56,718 bases of DNA from Deltaproteobacteria bacterium (GCA_016875015.1 VGSJ01000010.1:1-56718); one strand, 5' to 3'; shown: positions 22,289 to 31,589, counted from the first letter of the stretch. Notes: generated from the sequence alone by a model not told the origin. Program-made: numbers and translations.

Positions 22289-24892
22289 TTATGGCCCCGG
22301 GCTGCGGATAACGGCCAGCTTTTCCAGGTCCCGGATAAATTTCTCGGCATAATACTGGACATCCGCCTCATTGAGCATGATCATGTCCAGCTGGCGGGTG
22401 TGGATCGTCAGGTACCCCAGGATGCGCAGGCGGGAAAGCATGTAGTCTTTGGCTTCCGCTTCCAGGCGGGCGAACAGGGCGTCCTCTTTTACATCAACCT
22501 TGAAGTGGTACCTCTCCAGGATTTCCCCCACGAATTTAGTCCGCATGATCCGGCGGGGGTAGTCCGCGGCCCCGCCTTTGAAGGCGAACCGGATATAATT
22601 CTCGAAGGCCTGGTCCCCCACCAGGGCCTCCACCGTGGAAAAGTGAAAGCCCAGGCGGGAGGTCAGGTTGCAGAAGTCCCGGGCGATCATGAAGTAATTC
22701 GTGTTGCCGAACATGGTGCCCCCCGCCGTGGCCAGGTTTGGGTCCGTGGCCGCCCCCATGACGATGGACATGAAGCCCCGGGTGTCCACGGGCGGCGGCC
22801 CTTCCCAGGACACCGCGATGATTCCCTCCCACAGCGCCAGCATGGGGGCCGAGGCAATATTGCTCAGCTCTACCTGCGGCTCCGCCACCTCGGTCTTGAA
22901 CCCGTCCTCCAGGTTCAGGACCCACCACTCCAGGGCCACCGGGGTCACCAGTTTCTTGATGAAATATCGGGAGAACGCCTGTTTCTTGTCAAAGGCGAAC
23001 ATCTCCTTAACCGAAACCTCGTGGGCGAAACGCGTAATATCATGGAGGGTGCGGCACCCCTGGGGCCTGAAGTCGGGCGCCTCCGGGTTGGTGAGGTTAA
23101 GGGGGGTAATCAAGGTCATGACCTCTTTCAGGGTCTCCCCCACCGGGGTGCCGGCCATGAGCCCCTCTTTGGGGCGGGCCAGGGACATGAGTTCCTCTAC
23201 CCGGCCCCCGTAGACGGCCAGGCCGTCGGCGTCCACCGTCACCAGGTGCCCGGGCGTAAGCCTTACGGTAGCCTCCCTGGTGTTGAACAGCGCCGGGACG
23301 CCGAATTCCCGGGCGACATTGGCCAGGTGGCCGGTAATCCCGCCCCGGTCGGTGACGAGGGCCGCGGCCCGGCTCAAGAGGGGGGCCCAGCCGGGATGCG
23401 GGAAGGCCGTGACCAGGACCGCCCCGGCCGGGAATTGCAGCATGTCCAGGTCGTTCTGCACCACATAGACCGGTCCAGCCGCCACCCCTGAGCCGGCCAG
23501 CTCGCCGCCCTTAAGGAGGACGGGATACTTCCCGGCCCAGGCCTCGACGCTTTCGCTCCGGGGGGCCGCCATCTGTTTCAAGGGCCGGCTCTGGAGGATA
23601 AAGATGCGTCCCTCCCCATCGATGCACCACTCGATGTCCTGGGGCCCTTTAAAATGAGACTCCAGCACCAGGGCGATCCGGGCCAGTTCCAGGGCCTGGT
23701 CATCCGTGAGGGCGGCCTCGGTCCCCTGGGCATCGCTCAGCAGCCGCACCCCTTCCCCCGGGAGGCACACGGCTTTCAGTTCCTTGTCCCTTATCTCCCG
23801 CTGGAGGATCGTCAGGGGCTCCCCCCGGGAGACGACCCACAAATCCGGCGTGACCGACCCGTCCACCACGGATTTGGCCAGCCCGTGGACCGCGTTGAGA
23901 AAGACAGCGTCGCTGCGGATGTCGGTGGGATCCCGGGAATACATCACCCCCCCGGAGACGGAATCCACCATGGCCATGCACCCCGCGCACATGGCCACGT
24001 CTTCGTCCCTGAGCCCCTTGTGCAGGCGGTAGCTCACCGCGGTCAGGGCATATTTGCTGGCCAACACCTCCTTGTACACCGCGTGGAGGTTGGCCTCGCT
24101 GACATTGAGTTCCGAATGGTATTGCCCGGCAAACGAGGTGTCCGCCGCGTCCTCGCCGATGGCGCTGGAGCGCAGGGCCACATTTACGGCCCCGCCGGCG
24201 GCGCGCGCCAGTTCCGCATAGGCCCTGGAGATGGCCTCGGCCAACTCTGGCGGCAGGTCCGCCCCGATGATGAGCATCTGGATTTCCGAACTCTGCCGGT
24301 AGAGATCCGAGATCTCCTTTTCTTCCATGGATTGGAGGCGCCGGTTGATCTCATCAGTCAGCTGGTTGTGGGACAGGAACCGCTCATAGGCCGCCGCGGT
24401 GATGGCAAACCCCGGGGGCACCGCGATCCCCGGCAACTCCCCGGCGATCTCCCCCAGGTTGGCCATCTTGCTGCCCACCCCGTCCGCCATCTCCCGGCGC
24501 ACTGCCGTAAGGGGCAGCACCAGTTCCGAAATCGTCGGCGTCTGCCGCTGCTTCAGGGTGGCGTCAATCTTTCTTTCAATGTTCGAGAAGACCGTCTCCA
24601 GCGCCCGGTACCGGTTGCCGGTCAATTCATTCAAGTACCTGATGATATTGAAGACGTTGACACACGTCGCGGTGGCGTGGGACCGGATAAAGGTCATGCC
24701 GAAGCTGTGTCGGCTCCTAAGGGCCGCCTCCATGTCGGTCATGAGTTGCAAGGCGTTGTTGTTGGCGGCGAGCAGGAGCTTGAAGGCGTGATACCGGGCC
24801 TTGAAGACGGCCCGCAGTTCTTCCATGGAGAGAGCCGGTTCAGGCTCTCGTCCGGCAAACAGACTCTTTAGTCTTTGGAACAGGTTGGCCAT
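22289..24892 (-). CDS. PEP-synthase-like phosphotransfer protein with unfamiliar N- and C-terminal regions
   Basis: An 867-residue protein. Residues 1-135 are helical and not recognised. About 140-460 is a pyruvate,phosphate-dikinase/PEP-synthase ATP-binding domain (DGVGSKMANLGEI, ALRSSAIGEDAADTSFAGQYHS, DIEWCIDGEGRIFILQSRPL). About 480-570 is the mobile phospho-His domain, with TDRGGITGHLANVAREFGVP; the His is kept but the usual TSHA is TGHL. The C-terminal 290 residues do not resemble the PEP-binding TIM barrel of true PEP synthase. So it should bind ATP and phosphorylate a His, but the acceptor is unknown. A receiver and a 41-aa membrane peptide are encoded just upstream on the same strand. 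Confidence 0.8.
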   Translation of the reverse strand: MANLFQRLKSLFAGREPEPALSMEELRAVFKARYHAFKLLLAANNNALQLMTDMEAALRSRHSFGMTFIRSHATATCVNVFNIIRYLNELTGNRYRALETVFSNIERKIDATLKQRQTPTISELVLPLTAVRREMADGVGSKMANLGEIAGELPGIAVPPGFAITAAAYERFLSHNQLTDEINRRLQSMEEKEISDLYRQSSEIQMLIIGADLPPELAEAISRAYAELARAAGGAVNVALRSSAIGEDAADTSFAGQYHSELNVSEANLHAVYKEVLASKYALTAVSYRLHKGLRDEDVAMCAGCMAMVDSVSGGVMYSRDPTDIRSDAVFLNAVHGLAKSVVDGSVTPDLWVVSRGEPLTILQREIRDKELKAVCLPGEGVRLLSDAQGTEAALTDDQALELARIALVLESHFKGPQDIEWCIDGEGRIFILQSRPLKQMAAPRSESVEAWAGKYPVLLKGGELAGSGVAAGPVYVVQNDLDMLQFPAGAVLVTAFPHPGWAPLLSRAAALVTDRGGITGHLANVAREFGVPALFNTREATVRLTPGHLVTVDADGLAVYGGRVEELMSLARPKEGLMAGTPVGETLKEVMTLITPLNLTNPEAPDFRPQGCRTLHDITRFAHEVSVKEMFAFDKKQAFSRYFIKKLVTPVALEWWVLNLEDGFKTEVAEPQVELSNIASAPMLALWEGIIAVSWEGPPPVDTRGFMSIVMGAATDPNLATAGGTMFGNTNYFMIARDFCNLTSRLGFHFSTVEALVGDQAFENYIRFAFKGGAADYPRRIMRTKFVGEILERYHFKVDVKEDALFARLEAEAKDYMLSRLRILGYLTIHTRQLDMIMLNEADVQYYAEKFIRDLEKLAVIRSPGP

Positions 24893-25234: not shown

Positions 25235-25639
25235 TCACCCGGTTTTCTCCCGGGCCGGGACTCCCCCGGGGTAATGCTTCTCAAGCACCTCGGCCACCAC
25301 CATTTTCAGCAGATCCGTGTCCCCCTTCTTTTCCAGGAAAGTCGCAGCAATCGGCAGCGTCAGATTGGTGGGATATTCGGGCAGAAAGGTGTGGATCACC
25401 ACCGGCAAGGACGGCTTACGGTCCTTCAATCCGGCCCACACCTCCGGTTCCTCCAGGTAAGGGATATCCAGATCCAGGATCAGGAGATGGGGCGGGTCCT
25501 CGCCATTGATCCGTTCCAGCACCTCCCGGCCATCCCTGGCCACCTCCACCTGGTAGCCCTCGGCGCTCAACTCCCGCCGCAGGAAATCTCGTACGTGCCG
25601 GTTGCGATCTGCAATTAAAATCTTGCAGGACTTTGCCAC
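25235..25639 (-). CDS. response-regulator receiver domain protein
   Basis: A stand-alone receiver: ILIADRNRHVRDFLRREL, the phospho-accepting Asp in LLILDLDIPYLEE, and a Lys in ATFLEKKGD. The second acidic residue near the N-terminus is Arg-Asn rather than Asp, so metal binding may be weak. I use GTG 25639, which has GGGGTGAG just upstream; an ATG at 25687 in frame would add 16 unrelated residues. No output domain. It precedes the 41-aa membrane protein and the PEP-synthase-like protein on the same strand, with possible joint regulation. Confidence 0.75.
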   Translation of the reverse strand: MAKSCKILIADRNRHVRDFLRRELSAEGYQVEVARDGREVLERINGEDPPHLLILDLDIPYLEEPEVWAGLKDRKPSLPVVIHTFLPEYPTNLTLPIAATFLEKKGDTDLLKMVVAEVLEKHYPGGVPAREKTG

Positions 25640-25960
25640 GAAGCTCACCCCTGGCGTAAAAACTGAGCAACCGCCGTGCCAAGGCATGATTCAAACGCTA
25701 AATTATTAACTATTTGATATAATTACTGTTTTAGGATGGCCCAAGAAAAGTGGCTTAAAACCTGGCAGAAAAGGCTGTCGTCATTTTTTACAGTTTGTAA
25801 AAACGCCGAGGAAAATGAGCGGAGTAAGCGGTTAGAAAAGAAGATTGTTCGGCAGGGAGAGGCGGTTAATTTAAGGTTTCGGTAGGGCGAGCCTCTGTGC
25901 CCGCCGACCACATTCTTTGCACCGGCGAGACGCCGGTGCTGCCTGTTTTTAGGGTACGGT

Positions 25961-26098: not shown

Positions 26099-26776
26099 CT
26101 ATCCCTGGCTGAGCCTGCCCAGGGCCTTAGTAAGCTCCATCGCCACCCCCAGGCCCTGCCGGGCCTCTTTGCTGCCCATGACGCTCAGCATGCCTAAGGG
26201 GCCCAAGGGCTTGGTTCCCTTCAAGTTGATTCCCATGGGTAGATCCAGGATCCGATTCATGAAATCAACCATCTGGGGATCGGATAACTTTTTCAGCATA
26301 CTCAGCATGAGCACAAAGGCGTCGCTCATGTCGGCAATTTCCTCGGCGTCGTAATGAGCCGCCACCTTGGCGCGGACTTCCAGCATGGCTACGTAGGTGC
26401 GGAAGACCCCCTTGCGCTCCAGGTTATCCATGTAGTTAATGAGATTGGGAACGGCGCTTTTCAGCAGGGGCTCCATGGAGTTCCAAAGCTCGAACATGTT
26501 CTCCATCATCTCCAAGCCTTGGGTGAGGTTGCGCAGATTGCGCATGCCTTGTTTTATCAGGGCGAAGACGTCTTCCAGTTGAAAGCCGGACTCCACCATG
26601 CCCAGTTCATTGATCAAGAGTCTGACGGTCGAGTTCATCAGGGGAGAAATATCGGCTTTCAGCTCCGCCAGGCTCTGTTGGGCCTTGACCAGGGTCTGCA
26701 ACTGGCCCTCCATCCGGTCCAGTCTTTCCAGGAGCAGGTCTTCTTTACTCGGTTTTTTCTCGGTTTTATCGGGCAT
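26099..26776 (-). CDS. DUF1641-family protein
   Basis: The 225-residue protein from ATG 26776 (GGAG upstream) has an N-terminal coiled coil (LLLERLDRMEGQLQTLVKA) and a largely helical DUF1641-type body (ADISPLMNSTVRLLINELG, GLEMMENMFELW, PLGPLGMLSVMGSKEARQGL). No TM helix and no cysteines. DUF1641 proteins are uncharacterised but recur beside SQR-like flavoproteins and formate-dehydrogenase-type genes; a role as a partner subunit of the flavoprotein is my inference. It begins 14 bases after the flavoprotein gene ends. Confidence 0.8.
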   Translation of the reverse strand: MPDKTEKKPSKEDLLLERLDRMEGQLQTLVKAQQSLAELKADISPLMNSTVRLLINELGMVESGFQLEDVFALIKQGMRNLRNLTQGLEMMENMFELWNSMEPLLKSAVPNLINYMDNLERKGVFRTYVAMLEVRAKVAAHYDAEEIADMSDAFVLMLSMLKKLSDPQMVDFMNRILDLPMGINLKGTKPLGPLGMLSVMGSKEARQGLGVAMELTKALGRLSQG

Positions 26777-26790
26777 GCCCTTCTCCTCTC

Positions 26791-28035
26791 TCAACCATAG
26801 ACATGGTAGACATGGCCGAGCATTTTTCCGGCCATGAACATTTGGGGTTCCAGGGGCAGCTCCTTACCCTTGAGCATCATGTTGAAGTAGACCCATTTGA
26901 ACATCATCTTACCCCAGTAGTTGAAGTGGCTTTCGCCCAGGAGGGTGAAGGGTCCCAGGCCCGGGAAGGGATACTTGCCCGGCAGGGGTTCGACCTTATA
27001 GTTGAAGTCGATGAGGCTGGCCTTCTCGTAGCCGGTGACGATGAAGCAGGTGGAGTGGCCGTCGTATTCCGGTAAGGGTTCCTGGCCGTCGATTTCCCGG
27101 AGCAGGTTTTCCACGATGATATCCGATTCATAGTGGGCCACGGCCCCGGCCTTGGAGGTGGGGACGTTGGTGGCATCGCCCACGATGTACATATTCTCGA
27201 ACTGTTTGGACTTCAAGGTGCCGTGGTCCGTGTCGAGGTAACCCATGGGGTCGCCGATTTCGCTGTCGATGATGACCTGGGCGCCGAAGTTGGGCGGGAT
27301 TGCCACCAGCAGATCGTAATTGACCTCGTCGCCTTTGGCGGAGACGATAGTTTTGTCGCCGACGTTGACCTCGGCGATATCGAAGTTCGGGGTGATCTTG
27401 ATGTTCTTCTCTACGCACAGTTTGGTCAAGGCCGCGGTGGCCACCGGCTTGGTGAAGGCCCCGGAAAGCGGGGTCACCAGTTCCAGTTCGATGTCATCCC
27501 GGACCCCGTTGACCGAAAAGTACCAGTCGGCCATGAAGATGAACTCCAGGGGCGCCACCGGGCATTTGATGGGCATTTCGGCAATGTTTAAGACGATCTT
27601 GCCTTTTTTGAAATATTTCCATCTCTTGTAAAGGGCGATGGCGCCATCGGGGGTATAGAAGTCATGGATATCGCCCCGCCAGTCGTCCCGCATGCCCTCG
27701 ACTTCGTCCGGCATGATCCGGCAGCCCGTGCCCACCACCAGCCAGTCGTAGTCAACATGACCCTTTTTGGTCTTGATCCGCTTCTTCACCGGATCGATGT
27801 TGGTCACTTCGTCCAGGACGAAATCGATGCCCGGGAGGACGAAATCCATCTTGGGCTTGATGCACTCCTCCGGCTTGTAAACCCCGAAGGGAATGAAGAG
27901 CCAGCCCGGCTGGTAGTGATGCTGCCGGTCCCGGTCAATGACGGTGATCTTCCAGTCGTCGTCCAGCTTCTCTCGCATTTTGGTGGCCACCATGGTGCCA
28001 CCAGATCCATAACCCAAAATAACCAGTTTTTTCAT
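26791..28035 (-). CDS. sulfide:quinone oxidoreductase-like FAD flavoprotein
   Basis: SQRs oxidise sulfide to polysulfide or thiol-bound sulfur and pass electrons to quinone. From ATG 28035 (AGGCGAGG upstream) the 414 residues show the FAD Rossmann motif (KLVILGYGSGGTMVATKM), a second nucleotide segment (DYDWLVVGTGCR), the FAD-contact motif YIVGDATNVPTSKAG (283-297) and a membrane-associating C-terminus with many aromatic residues. Cys158 in IKCPVAPLEF and Cys330 in GHSTCFIVTGYEKA match the two redox cysteines of SQR; the third cysteine, near residue 125 in classical enzymes, is not in place (Cys105 is the nearest). This suggests a distant SQR type, possibly with a substrate other than free sulfide. 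Confidence 0.85.
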   Translation of the reverse strand: MKKLVILGYGSGGTMVATKMREKLDDDWKITVIDRDRQHHYQPGWLFIPFGVYKPEECIKPKMDFVLPGIDFVLDEVTNIDPVKKRIKTKKGHVDYDWLVVGTGCRIMPDEVEGMRDDWRGDIHDFYTPDGAIALYKRWKYFKKGKIVLNIAEMPIKCPVAPLEFIFMADWYFSVNGVRDDIELELVTPLSGAFTKPVATAALTKLCVEKNIKITPNFDIAEVNVGDKTIVSAKGDEVNYDLLVAIPPNFGAQVIIDSEIGDPMGYLDTDHGTLKSKQFENMYIVGDATNVPTSKAGAVAHYESDIIVENLLREIDGQEPLPEYDGHSTCFIVTGYEKASLIDFNYKVEPLPGKYPFPGLGPFTLLGESHFNYWGKMMFKWVYFNMMLKGKELPLEPQMFMAGKMLGHVYHVYG

Positions 28036-28151
28036 AAACCTCGCCTTTCTTATGGTCTGTTCCAGTCCCGCAAAGGGGTTCTGGAAGTTAATCACGCGCC
28101 CCTAATCTTAGCGCATATCGCTAAGAGAGCAAGAGCAGGTTGAGTACCGAG

Positions 28152-28979
28152 TCAAGGGGTACGGAGAAACTCCCGCACCAGGCGTCTCCAGCCCAATTTG
28201 GGATAATGACCGTAGATGTCGTCGATGATTATCCCTCCGGAGGGAAGGGTGACGCCTGCCGCGGATTCCAGCATTCCCAGAAGCTTATGGGCCTCATTTT
28301 CGATCCAGGCGGCGTTGCGCTGGCCAAAGAGCAGTTTTTCCAGGTCCAGCTTGAGATTAGTGGGGGTGACGACACACAGCCAACCCTCACCGTAGGGGTC
28401 GTCATGGGCCAGAGCAGCTCTTGCCCGGACCCTGGGATTCACGACCTCGACCACGCCATCCAGGGGCGCCAGGACGGCGGCCTCTTTCCCCTGGCGGACC
28501 AGGTGCAGGCCCACGCGGTCACGCTGAAATTCCTCCCCGGGGGATGGCAGCCTCATCTCGTCCGCGGGACCCAGAACTTTCTGGGAAAAATCATCCAGGC
28601 CGATGCGCACCCGGCCGCAGGTCTCCAAAGCCACCCAGGAATGACCCTGGTGCAGATAGATGGAAGTGGGCGCCCCAAACCCATAGACCTCCCTAACTTG
28701 AGGTCGGTCCAGACTGGCATAGCACTCCGATTGATCCTCCAGAAGTTGGTCGAAGGAGCGCTGCCGCATCTTTTCCCTCAGGGGCAAGATGCGGTCCGGC
28801 TGGTACGTCGTCAGTTCGCACGCGTCCCGCAGGGTCAGATCCTGGGCGGCGACTGCGGTCATGGCGCGATCGAATTCACAACTGGCGCAGTCAAAACAAT
28901 GATGGCACATCTTGAAATCGACCACGCCGGCTTCCATCCAGATGCAAGGCTTTTTCCCATCGGAGACGGCATCAATCAT
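28152..28979 (-). CDS. GcvH-like protein 1, with Cys-rich N-terminal region
   Basis: Last of four GcvH-like genes in transcription order. Residues 1-100 hold a Cys-rich motif (CIWMEAGVVDFKMCHHC, then DCASCEFD), probably a metal site. The GcvH-like lipoyl fold follows (YLHQGHSWVALETCGRVRIG, DDFSQKVLGPADEMRLP, DDPYGEGWL) with a C-terminal tail shared by all four (DIYGHYPKLGWRRLVREFL). In the loop that normally reads ESVKAASD the sequence is RQGKEAAV: in ungapped alignment the lipoyl-Lys position is Gly. ATG 28979 is chosen over TTG 28994. It may carry sulfur or acyl groups, or no cofactor at all. Confidence 0.82.
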   Translation of the reverse strand: MIDAVSDGKKPCIWMEAGVVDFKMCHHCFDCASCEFDRAMTAVAAQDLTLRDACELTTYQPDRILPLREKMRQRSFDQLLEDQSECYASLDRPQVREVYGFGAPTSIYLHQGHSWVALETCGRVRIGLDDFSQKVLGPADEMRLPSPGEEFQRDRVGLHLVRQGKEAAVLAPLDGVVEVVNPRVRARAALAHDDPYGEGWLCVVTPTNLKLDLEKLLFGQRNAAWIENEAHKLLGMLESAAGVTLPSGGIIIDDIYGHYPKLGWRRLVREFLRTP

Positions 28980-29000
28980 GGTCTTGCTTCCCAAATGAGG

Positions 29001-29768
29001 TTAGGATCTTTTCTTCCAGTTCCGGGTCACATTGGTTAAGAAAAACTCCTTGACCAAACGCCGCCAGCCCATCTGGGGATAATGGCTGAAGACATCATCG
29101 ATGATGCCGCCGCCGCTGGGGAGGGTGGCCCCCGCCGTAGTGTCTATGAGGTTCAGTAACCGGCAGGACTCTTTCTCGATCCAGGCGGCGTTCTTCTCGG
29201 CAGAGAACAGGTTAGCCAAATTGTGCTGGAGATTGGCGGGCTTGACCTTAAACAGCCAGCCTTCGCCATAGGGATCGTCGTGGAGTAGGCGGGGCTTCGC
29301 ACGAACCTTGGGGTTGACTTCCGTGATCATGCCGTCCACCGGCGCCTCGAAGGAAGCCTTGTTTGCCTTTTTGACCACTGCCATACAAACGTGATCCTGA
29401 TAAAAAACCGTGCCCACGGCAGGCAACCTCAGCTCGTCGGCCGGTCCCAGGAGTTTCTGGGAAAAATCATCCAATCCCACCCGCACTTCGCCGGTGTCTT
29501 CGAGGGCCACCCAGGCATGGCCATGGTGCAAATAATAGTCGCTGGGGGGTGATTTAATACCGAAGGCTTCCGCCATCTCCGGCCCCGGGGAGGGGGACCG
29601 GCTAGCGGTGCCATCCTCTTTTAAGGGGTGATGGTTGACAAACCAAATGGCCCCGCATTGACGACAAGCGCACTTAAACTGGGGTTTGGCTCCACCTTCA
29701 TGGCCGTGAACCTCCACCACCAACCAATGCCCGCACATGGCCCCGCAATTCTGGCAATCAAGTTTCAT
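29001..29768 (-). CDS. GcvH-like protein 2, with N-terminal zinc ribbon
   Basis: The 255-residue protein starts with a zinc-ribbon-like region (MKLDCQNCG, then CACRQCGAIWF), continues with a linker and the GcvH-like fold (YYLHHGHAWVALEDTGEVRV, DDFSQKLLGPADELRLPAVG, LHDDPYGEGWLFKVKP) and ends with the shared tail (GWRRLVKEFFLTN, then basic KKRS). The loop is VVKKANKASFEAP: the canonical Lys position is Ala, while a Lys sits two residues later. ATG 29768 has GGAGG upstream. It lies 40 bases after gene 3 and 21 bases before gene 1. Confidence 0.85.
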   Translation of the reverse strand: MKLDCQNCGAMCGHWLVVEVHGHEGGAKPQFKCACRQCGAIWFVNHHPLKEDGTASRSPSPGPEMAEAFGIKSPPSDYYLHHGHAWVALEDTGEVRVGLDDFSQKLLGPADELRLPAVGTVFYQDHVCMAVVKKANKASFEAPVDGMITEVNPKVRAKPRLLHDDPYGEGWLFKVKPANLQHNLANLFSAEKNAAWIEKESCRLLNLIDTTAGATLPSGGGIIDDVFSHYPQMGWRRLVKEFFLTNVTRNWKKRS

Positions 29769-29808
29769 GCGATCATACCTCCACTGGACGGCCTTCAGCC
29801 GGTCCCGT

Positions 29809-30426
29809 TTAAGATCTTTTCTTCCAGTTCTGGGTTAAGTTGGTTAAGAGGAACTCCTTAACCAGACGCCGCCAGCCCAACTGGGGATAATGGCCGTAAA
29901 CATCATCGAGGATGTTGCCGCCACTGGGGAGGGTGGCGCCGATGGTGGTGTTCATGAGATAAAATAATCGCTGGGACTCTTGTTCGATCCAGGTGACATT
30001 GGATTCACCATAAAACAAGTTCTCCAGATTTTGTTGGAGATTGGTCGGCTTGACCCTGAACAACCACCCTTCTCCATAGGGATCCTCATGGATCAGGCCG
30101 GGCCGCTGTCGCACCTTGGGATTGATCGCCTCGATAGTGCCATCCACCGGGGCCTCGATGGAGGCTTTATATCCCTCTCTGAGCAAGGCCATGCAAAGAT
30201 GATCCTGATAATAAACCTTGCCGATCTCGGGTAACTTAACCTCGTCAGCCGGGCCCAGGATTTTCTGGGAAAAAGCATCCAAACCCACCCGCACCTGGCC
30301 GGCGGCTTCGAGCACCGCCCAGGTGTGTCCCCGGTGCAGGTAGTAAGTACTGGTGGGCACTTGAAAACCGAAAACGTCGGCAATCTGAGGCCTTATTGAG
30401 TGGGCCTGGCAATCCTTGCAATTCAT
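29809..30426 (-). CDS. GcvH-like protein 3
   Basis: A 205-residue GcvH-like protein with only a short CxxC start (MNCKDC) in place of the zinc ribbon. The fold motifs are YYLHRGHTWAVLEAAGQVRV, DAFSQKILGPADEVKLP and HEDPYGEGWLFRVKPT; the tail (DDVYGHYPQLGWRRLVKEFL) ends in KKRS like genes 2 and 4. The loop REGYKASIEAP has Gly at the canonical lipoyl-Lys position with Lys two residues on. GGAGG precedes ATG 30426. Classical GcvH has about 130 residues, so the extra 50-70 at the C-terminus mark a distinct subfamily. Confidence 0.85.
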   Translation of the reverse strand: MNCKDCQAHSIRPQIADVFGFQVPTSTYYLHRGHTWAVLEAAGQVRVGLDAFSQKILGPADEVKLPEIGKVYYQDHLCMALLREGYKASIEAPVDGTIEAINPKVRQRPGLIHEDPYGEGWLFRVKPTNLQQNLENLFYGESNVTWIEQESQRLFYLMNTTIGATLPSGGNILDDVYGHYPQLGWRRLVKEFLLTNLTQNWKKRS

Positions 30427-30490
30427 GACTTGAACCTCCGCCTTATTTGTTCGCCTGACCTGATCTTCACCGGGGCCTTGGGCCGGTTTT

Positions 30491-31111
30491 TCAGGACCTC
30501 TTCTTCCAATCCTTGGTCAGGCCGGTGAGGAGAAACTCCTGCACCAGGCGCCGCCAACCCAGCTGGGGATAATGGCTGTAGATATCGTCGATGAAAGTGC
30601 CGCCATCCGGGACGGTGACCCCGACTTTGGTCTCCATGAGGTTCATCAAACGATGGGACTCTTGGTAGATCCAGTCGGCATTATCCTTTTCATAGAACAA
30701 GTTAGCCAAATTGCGCTGGAGATTAGTCGGCCTGACTCTGAGCAGCCAGCCTTCGCCATACGGGTCGTCGTGGATCAGGCTGGGGTTTTCCCGGACCTTG
30801 GGGTTTACTGCCGCGATGGCGCCATCCACCGGCGCCAGGAAGGAAGCTTTCTGTCCTTGCTTGAGCAGAGCCATACAAATGTGATCCTGATAATAGAGCA
30901 TGCCGACCGCGGGTAACTTAACCTCGTCTGCCGGGCCTAAGACCTTCTGGGAAAAGTCATCCATTCCCACCCTTACCAGGCCGGTGTCTTCGAGTACTGC
31001 CCAGGCGTGCCCCCGGTGTAAGTAATAGTCACTGATGGGCACTTGAAAACCGAAGACTTCCATCATCTGCGCCCCTGGGGAAAGTGCCTGGTTATCTTGG
31101 CTATTCCTCAT
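30491..31111 (-). CDS. GcvH-like protein 4, N-terminal zinc ribbon lost by frameshift
   Basis: First gene of the operon. The open frame from ATG 31111 gives 206 residues with the same fold and tail as gene 3; the loop is KQGQKASFLAP. Upstream, ATG 31248 (GGAGG nine bases before) starts MKCKKCGHWRIEILYHDR in one frame. From about 31185 the next frame reads CICRECGKTWFIYKHHLFK and runs on into ATG 31111 without a stop. Together these match the zinc ribbon of gene 2, so a single-base loss near 31187-31192 has split the gene. AAGGAGGGG right before ATG 31111 could allow a restart without the zinc ribbon. Confidence 0.8.
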   Translation of the reverse strand: MRNSQDNQALSPGAQMMEVFGFQVPISDYYLHRGHAWAVLEDTGLVRVGMDDFSQKVLGPADEVKLPAVGMLYYQDHICMALLKQGQKASFLAPVDGAIAAVNPKVRENPSLIHDDPYGEGWLLRVRPTNLQRNLANLFYEKDNADWIYQESHRLMNLMETKVGVTVPDGGTFIDDIYSHYPQLGWRRLVQEFLLTGLTKDWKKRS

Positions 31112-31430
31112 CTGCCCCTCCTTAAACAGGTGGTGTTTGTAAATAAACCAGGTCTTCCCACACTCACGGCAGATACACTTGCCATGTGGCTTGTCCTGTC
31201 GTGATAGAGAATTTCAATCCGCCAATGCCCGCATTTCTTGCACTTCATGAGCCTTGACCTCCACCCCCGGATTTATTGCCATTAATTCTTGGGGAGCCTT
31301 CGTTCTCTATCAAAGCAAAAAATGGGCCAACCCAGAAATATTTTTTATAACTATCTATAATGTCTATAAATTTAACCTATGCCCCCTTCGGTCCGAAATA
31401 TTCTCAATGGGGGGAAGAGATATATTTGCC

Positions 31431-31589
31431 TGACAATCGAACATTAAATCTCCCGGAAACATATAACCTGCTGATTTTCATCATGGTTTATGTGCCAGAT
31501 AATCGAACGTAAAATAAGTCTGAAAAGGGCGAGAAAGGATAACTTATTTAATTTACATGCTATTTGTGTGTTCTATTATCGAACATGGC
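31431..31589 (-). promoter_or_regulatory. three degenerate direct repeats upstream of the GcvH operon
   Basis: On the minus strand the cores are ATGTTCGATTGTCAGGCA (ending near 31443), ACGTTCGATTATCTGGCA (near 31509) and ATGTTCGATAATAGAACA (near 31587). The centres are about 66 and 76 bases apart. The region 31249-31722 has no gene and is AT-rich at 31330-31375, where a promoter for the operon could lie. The repeats may be operator sites for a regulator or worn copies of a dispersed repeat. Confidence 0.4.

Follow-up and report, generated by a model that had tools for sequence, protein, structure and literature searches.

The window analyzed here is the whole 56,718-nucleotide stretch GCA_016875015.1 VGSJ01000010.1:1-56718 of a Deltaproteobacteria bacterium. 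On its minus strand, six consecutive genes at 26099–31248 encode four tandem proteins of the GcvH fold (gcv1 to gcv4), a flavoprotein, and a DUF1641 protein. With modest confidence, gcv1–gcv4 are considered to be H-fold proteins that work without lipoate as accessory subunits of thiol/quinone redox complexes and are controlled by sigma-54. All four are members of a widespread and apparently undescribed family of lipoate-free H-like proteins, for which the label GcvL is used in this report.

An earlier note on this DNA, made from the sequence alone, had described six minus-strand genes separated by 14 to 116 bases. Profile matches and the chosen gene starts bear this out: the gaps range from 14 bases between the flavoprotein and DUF1641 genes to 116 bases between gcv4 and the flavoprotein gene. 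The host is a sulfate-reducing bacterium, and both dsrA and rpoN are present in its genome, a 3.1-Mb draft of 148 contigs that is 99.96% complete. Judging from named relatives, its order corresponds to Desulfobacca-like bacteria.

Loss of the lipoyl lysine

In an ungapped alignment with the E. coli H protein, the position of K64, the lipoyl Lys, is occupied by Ala in gcv3 and by Gly in the three other copies. The same position is not Lys in 150 of the 161 members of the GcvL family, and the Lys of the other 11 is never in the normal E-S/T-V-K context. The lost site is surrounded by a signature of the family, Arg at −2 (107/161) and Ala at +3 (118/161). Lys at +2 was considered as a displaced attachment site and rejected, as the residue there varies (Lys 47, Thr 28, Arg 21, Glu 16). 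gcv3 keeps a Lys one residue ahead of the lipoyl position, which calls for caution in reading the loss as a lack of lipoylation.

No match to LplA/LipB (PF21948, LplA-B_cat) is found in the genome, and its only PF03099 match has a BirA-like helix-turn-helix-plus-ligase layout. For LipA, the genome gives no more than 23.6 bits, where 310 would be needed to pass the cut-off. The earlier note had seen no other glycine cleavage gene around the array. For GcvT (GCV_T) this is true of the entire genome; the genome-wide search did not extend to gcvP and lpd. Because the lipoyl Lys is lost and the genome contains no lipoate ligase, above-cut-off LipA, or GcvT, lipoylation of gcv1–gcv4 by known enzymes is very unlikely. 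The LbpA-like lipoyl-carrier chemistry proposed earlier is thus abandoned here.

The models of gcv3 and gcv4 show the H-protein fold at high confidence, and solved H proteins superpose on them mostly at 1.2–2 Å. The gcv3 model has a predicted local distance difference test score (pLDDT) of 86. Foldseek template modeling scores (target) against H proteins are up to 0.93. On the basis of such models, gcv1–gcv4 are predicted to share the H-protein fold.

Other GcvH homologues are encoded elsewhere in the host genome. One of them (L002, 1435–1932 of contig C140) has a normal-looking ETIKA lipoyl motif and lies beside an arsenite-methyltransferase-like gene, yet lipoate enzymes are not detected in this genome. 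A second homologue (L001, 1477–1881 of contig C29) is without the lipoyl Lys (EAKNGRRELKAP) and has a ResB-like gene on one side and a universal-stress gene on the other.

The GcvL family and its neighbors

A profile built from the four window copies was used to find GcvL relatives. They are present in 16 of the 29 genomes of the order and in 102 of the 395 genomes sampled from the phylum, and scattered loci are also labeled Calditrichota, Acidobacteria, and others. Among cultured relatives, Desulfosarcina widdelii carries two GcvL homologues. Three genus-mates of the host are without any GcvL.

Neighbors were counted within 10 kb of 54 GcvL loci outside the order of the host. Archaemetzincin (AmzA, peptidase M54) is seen at 45 loci, a sigma-54 response regulator at 43, both of them at 41, and a histidine kinase at 42. 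A recognizable redox module, either HdrA/GltD/HdrB/HdrC/FlpD/MetV or NrfC-NrfD, is seen near 38 of the 54. As a control, archaemetzincin is seen at none of 28 SQR (sulfide:quinone reductase) loci without GcvL. The archaemetzincin keeps the zinc-binding HExxHxxxxxH, in which the usual Gly is often replaced, for example by Ser or Asn.

GcvL is also fused to redox domains. The fusion partners are an HdrC-like iron-sulfur domain (L011, 5824–6921, and L016), HdrA-like, FlpD, and molybdopterin-binding domains (L028–L032, such as L029, 5652–8570), and an HdrA-like protein (L162 and L163). Near NrfCD, GcvL bears an N-terminal hydrophobic anchor, and these membrane-anchored copies flank NrfC-NrfD; one of them resembles HmcD, slightly below the cut-off of that model.

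The histidine kinases are not uniform. The kinase of L042 (702–3068) contains CxxCH-type motifs in its sensor part, and these motifs suggest a haem-based signal in some variants of the GcvL module. The Desulfobacca-type kinase, unlike that of L042, starts with NAD-binding-like domains.

Evolution of the four copies

The four N-termini differ from one another, as the earlier note had described. gcv3 has a CxxC..CxxC ribbon, gcv4 has C-x-W..C-x5-C-x2-C, gcv2 has a short CxxC, and the ribbon of gcv1, which starts from 31248, is out of frame. In gcv4-type proteins, the motif C-x-W...C-x5-C-x2-C-x2-D is invariant in 22 relatives and is often present twice. This motif may be a metal site.

Each copy in the array groups with the copy at the same position in two relatives, L007 and L008, and gcv1–gcv3 group also with those of L009 (support 96/93 to 100/100). 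The ratios of nonsynonymous to synonymous substitution rates (dN/dS) between the copies and their counterparts are ~0.12–0.30. Because positional counterparts group together and dN/dS shows constraint, the copies are judged to be old and separately maintained, in line with the divergence noticed earlier. These clades and ratios also argue that the array is not a chance arrangement.

The zinc ribbon of gcv1 is decaying. The frame break lies at one place in the window and at another in L009, L008 has lost part of the ribbon cysteines, and L007 retains an intact ribbon. A programmed frameshift in gcv1 was considered and rejected, since the break of L009 sits elsewhere and L007 needs none. An ATG with a ribosome site comes after the ribbon, so that production of the gcv1 body is still possible.

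The SQR-DUF1641 pair

The flavoprotein matches SQR_III_seleno (NF049943) with 668.8 bits over 405 positions (cut-off 525). Both SQR catalytic cysteines align with human-type SQOR (PIKCPVAP and STCFIVTGY), and the residue is Cys, not selenocysteine (Sec). By sequence, the flavoprotein is classified as a type III SQR, of the selenoprotein subtype in its Cys form. The earlier note had called it SQR-like and had placed the array in a redox or sulfur context; the identity of the SQR agrees with both. Among relatives of the order (L085–L103), most type III SQR copies correspond to the Sec form and are read through a TGA that lies in frame close to the C-terminal catalytic position, and several genomes of the order carry Sec and Cys copies together.

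DUF1641 adjoins type III SQR in every genome of the order where both are readable. In Bacillus, formate dehydrogenase depends on ForE, a DUF1641 protein, to bind and reduce menaquinone (PMC8808070). Because ForE serves menaquinone binding, a quinone-site role of the window DUF1641 is reasonable, and by this analogy it probably forms the menaquinone site of SQR.

A four-copy GcvL array beside SQR is seen only in the window, L007, and L008, and a three-copy version is seen in L009. The genome search proposed in the earlier note thus gave a grouping of GcvH-like, SQR, and DUF1641 genes that is not unique to the host. The kinase, regulator, and archaemetzincin genes precede the array in L007, L008, and L009. 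The corresponding set of the host sits on another contig, C1 (L108).

The gap between gcv4 and SQR (28036–28151) contains a perfect 8-bp hairpin, TCTTAGCG..CGCTAAGA, without a T-run after it. The sequence of the gap is not conserved in L007–L009. No sigma-70 promoter between gcv4 and SQR is listed on that strand by the promoter scan.

The sigma-54 promoter and upstream palindromes

A sigma-54 promoter, TGGCCC-N5-TTGCT, sits 81 bases ahead of the ribbon ATG. Its score is reached by 0.33% of random 480-bp stretches. A sigma-54 site scoring at least 0.9 is found upstream of the GcvL open reading frame in 49 of 91 loci, compared with 1.1% of random stretches. Upstream of GcvL sigma-54 sites, 33 TGT-N11-ACA palindromes are seen in 20 kb, corresponding to 1.6 per kb against a background of 0.11 per kb (15 times). 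The features of the window are listed in Table 1.

Table 1. The GcvL array, its upstream elements, and the SQR-DUF1641 genes in the window
Feature	Position	Strand	Basis
Putative quinone-binding SQR partner, DUF1641 protein	26099–26776	-	225 residues from ATG 26776; PF07849, 30.7 bits
Type III SQR, Cys form of the selenoprotein subtype	26791–28035	-	414 residues, ATG 28035; NF049943, 668.8 bits
gcv4, GcvH-like, N-terminal four-Cys motif, no lipoyl Lys	28152–28979	-	PF01597, 55.3 bits
gcv3, GcvH-like, intact N-terminal CxxC..CxxC ribbon, no lipoyl Lys	29001–29768	-	PF01597, 79.8 bits
gcv2, GcvH-like, short CxxC N-terminus, no lipoyl Lys	29809–30426	-	PF01597, 73.1 bits
gcv1, GcvH-like body, own ATG after AAGGAGG-like site, no lipoyl Lys	30491–31111	-	PF01597, 73.0 bits
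Zinc-ribbon remnant of gcv1, out of frame with the gcv1 body	31112–31248	-	Frame comparison with L007–L009
Sigma-54 −24/−12 promoter, TGGCCCATTTTTTGCT, upstream of the array	31314–31329	-	Score 0.90
Imperfect palindrome copy, TGTTCGATTGTCAGGCA	31427–31443	.	Read from sequence
Imperfect palindrome copy, CGTTCGATTATCTGGCA	31493–31509	.	Read from sequence
Candidate enhancer site, TGT-N11-ACA palindrome, TGTTCGATAATAGAACA	31569–31585	.	Family-wide palindrome enrichment

The starts of gcv4 (ATG 28979), SQR, and DUF1641 in Table 1 were chosen by comparison with relatives; the DUF1641 reading frame is open from TTG 26794. The Pfam cut-offs are 22.2 bits for PF01597 (GCV_H) and 21 bits for PF07849 (DUF1641). 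Downstream of DUF1641, a stand-alone receiver-domain protein is encoded at 25235–25687; the DVU0259 family is its closest NCBIfam model, with a score far under the cut-off. An 867-residue protein at 22289–24892 combines N-terminal and mobile domains like those of phosphoenolpyruvate synthase, and its C-terminal third is without a match.

Discussion

If gcv1–gcv4 are accessory subunits, GcvL proteins would serve as docking or adaptor subunits for HdrABC/FlpD/MetV or NrfC-NrfD, and here for type III SQR and DUF1641. Many of them would carry an N-terminal Cys4 head with Fe-S or Zn. A PAS histidine kinase and an NtrC-type regulator, encoded beside most family members, would activate the GcvL genes via the upstream palindromes and the sigma-54 promoter, and the archaemetzincin-family zinc metalloprotease would belong to the same set. 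The window would then represent an SQR-linked variant, in which the array is placed directly ahead of SQR and the DUF1641 partner probably supplies the menaquinone site. We infer the adaptor role, the metal in the Cys head, and the binding to SQR, as well as the link between regulator and target in the host genome and the cotranscription of gcv1–gcv4 with SQR. It can be speculated, with considerable doubt, that a hitherto undescribed redox-control system is at work, in which H-fold proteins free of lipoate, whose Cys head binds metal, couple Hdr, Nrf, and SQR exchangeably, and in which assembly or turnover is set by a dedicated archaemetzincin and a sigma-54 two-component system.

Several facts weigh against the accessory-subunit reading. 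Type III SQR with DUF1641 after it is found in nearly all genomes of the host order and mostly has no GcvL beside it. The window array is not accompanied by the set of kinase, regulator, and archaemetzincin, and the hairpin-bearing gap of 116 nucleotides could separate the transcripts of the array and SQR. In the gcv4 model, confidence is low for the N-terminal Cys head, with pLDDT mostly below 60. The GcvL loci were picked by best match and some places are counted twice, so that the neighborhood counts are not fully independent, and these counts are also curtailed by contig ends. The earlier proposal that four carriers serve the flavoprotein is overstated, since GcvL is usually seen with Hdr or NrfCD and with the kinase, regulator, and archaemetzincin, and since SQR-DUF1641 is mostly without GcvL.

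The neighborhood could also be a matter of chance, a sigma-54 GcvL array happening to be upstream of an independent SQR-DUF1641 operon. The usual occurrence of SQR-DUF1641 on its own, the gap with its hairpin, and the genus-mates without GcvL fit this view, but the gene order is kept in three other, diverged genomes (dS ~0.4–0.6 for SQR, and ~0.6–1.3 for GcvL against the window), and a chance neighborhood seems unlikely. Far more improbable is that gcv1–gcv4 are lipoylated LbpA-type carriers, moving the sulfur intermediates of a pathway that is sHdr-like or linked to SQR. Such carriers would be compatible with the GcvH fold, with the sulfur context given by SQR and by the dsrA of the genome, and with the Lys of gcv3 one residue before the lipoyl position. 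The lipoyl Lys itself, strictly conserved in LbpA (PMC6067878), is gone from all four copies, and neither LplA/LipB nor an above-cut-off LipA is found in the 99.96% complete genome.

It is possible, albeit doubtful, that GcvL acts inside the signaling set. Its Cys head would sense redox, archaemetzincin would cleave or handle GcvL, GcvL would feed back on the kinase, and the redox enzymes would be targets rather than partners. AmzA, the response regulator, and the histidine kinase indeed neighbor GcvL more constantly than any single redox module. On the other hand, the direct fusion of GcvL to electron-transfer domains of the HdrC-like and HdrA/FlpD-like types and the membrane-anchored copies flanking NrfC-NrfD point to a structural role in complexes, and the promoter in front of GcvL indicates that GcvL is an output.

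In anaerobes, a GcvH-like gene is routinely assigned to glycine cleavage or presumed to encode a lipoate carrier. GcvL is a large family that is kept despite the loss of the attachment site, being duplicated, fused to Hdr-type domains, and regulated together with a bacterial archaemetzincin. Concrete and testable partners are thereby offered for GcvL, for bacterial archaemetzincin, and for type III SQR-DUF1641, a little-studied pair in sulfate reducers. In the literature, limited to open-access papers, no description of the GcvL module was found, and no paper was found on archaemetzincin together with sulfate-reducing, or on any two of archaemetzincin, GcvH, and NrfD. The sigma-54 regulome paper of D. 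vulgaris contains no mention of GcvH, metalloprotease, or DUF1641.

Comparison with known systems

The fold is common to GcvL and GcvH (PF01597, TIGR00527), and gcv3 shares ~30% identity with solved H proteins over the domain. In contrast to GcvH, the window proteins are without the lipoyl Lys, bear Cys heads at the N-terminus and an additional helical extension at the C-terminus, and are encoded in a genome without GcvT. Their scores against the GcvH equivalog TIGR00527 are 48–73 bits, while its cut-off is 115.85. NF045810 (Desulfobacteria) and TIGR03077 (not_gcvH) are stand-alone H-like proteins, as the window proteins are; membership in either was rejected, as the window proteins score 18–39 bits and the cut-offs are 150 and 144.

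LbpA of sHdr sulfur oxidation is, like GcvL, a GcvH-like protein encoded beside Hdr-like redox genes. LbpA strictly conserves the lipoylated Lys, and most LbpA proteins also conserve two cysteines (PMC6067878). GcvL has lost this Lys, and its partners are SQR-DUF1641, NrfCD, or Hdr-FlpD-MetV. An sHdr cluster includes a lipoate ligase of its own; no hdr genes adjoin the window array, and the genome contains no match to the LplA family.

The window SQR is a full-length match to type III SQR (NF049943) and keeps both catalytic positions. It differs from the selenoprotein SQR in that Cys replaces Sec and a GcvL array lies ahead of it. In the formate dehydrogenase ForCE, DUF1641 (ForE) is likewise beside a soluble quinone-reducing enzyme (PMC8808070); the window differs in having SQR instead of a molybdenum enzyme as the catalytic partner.

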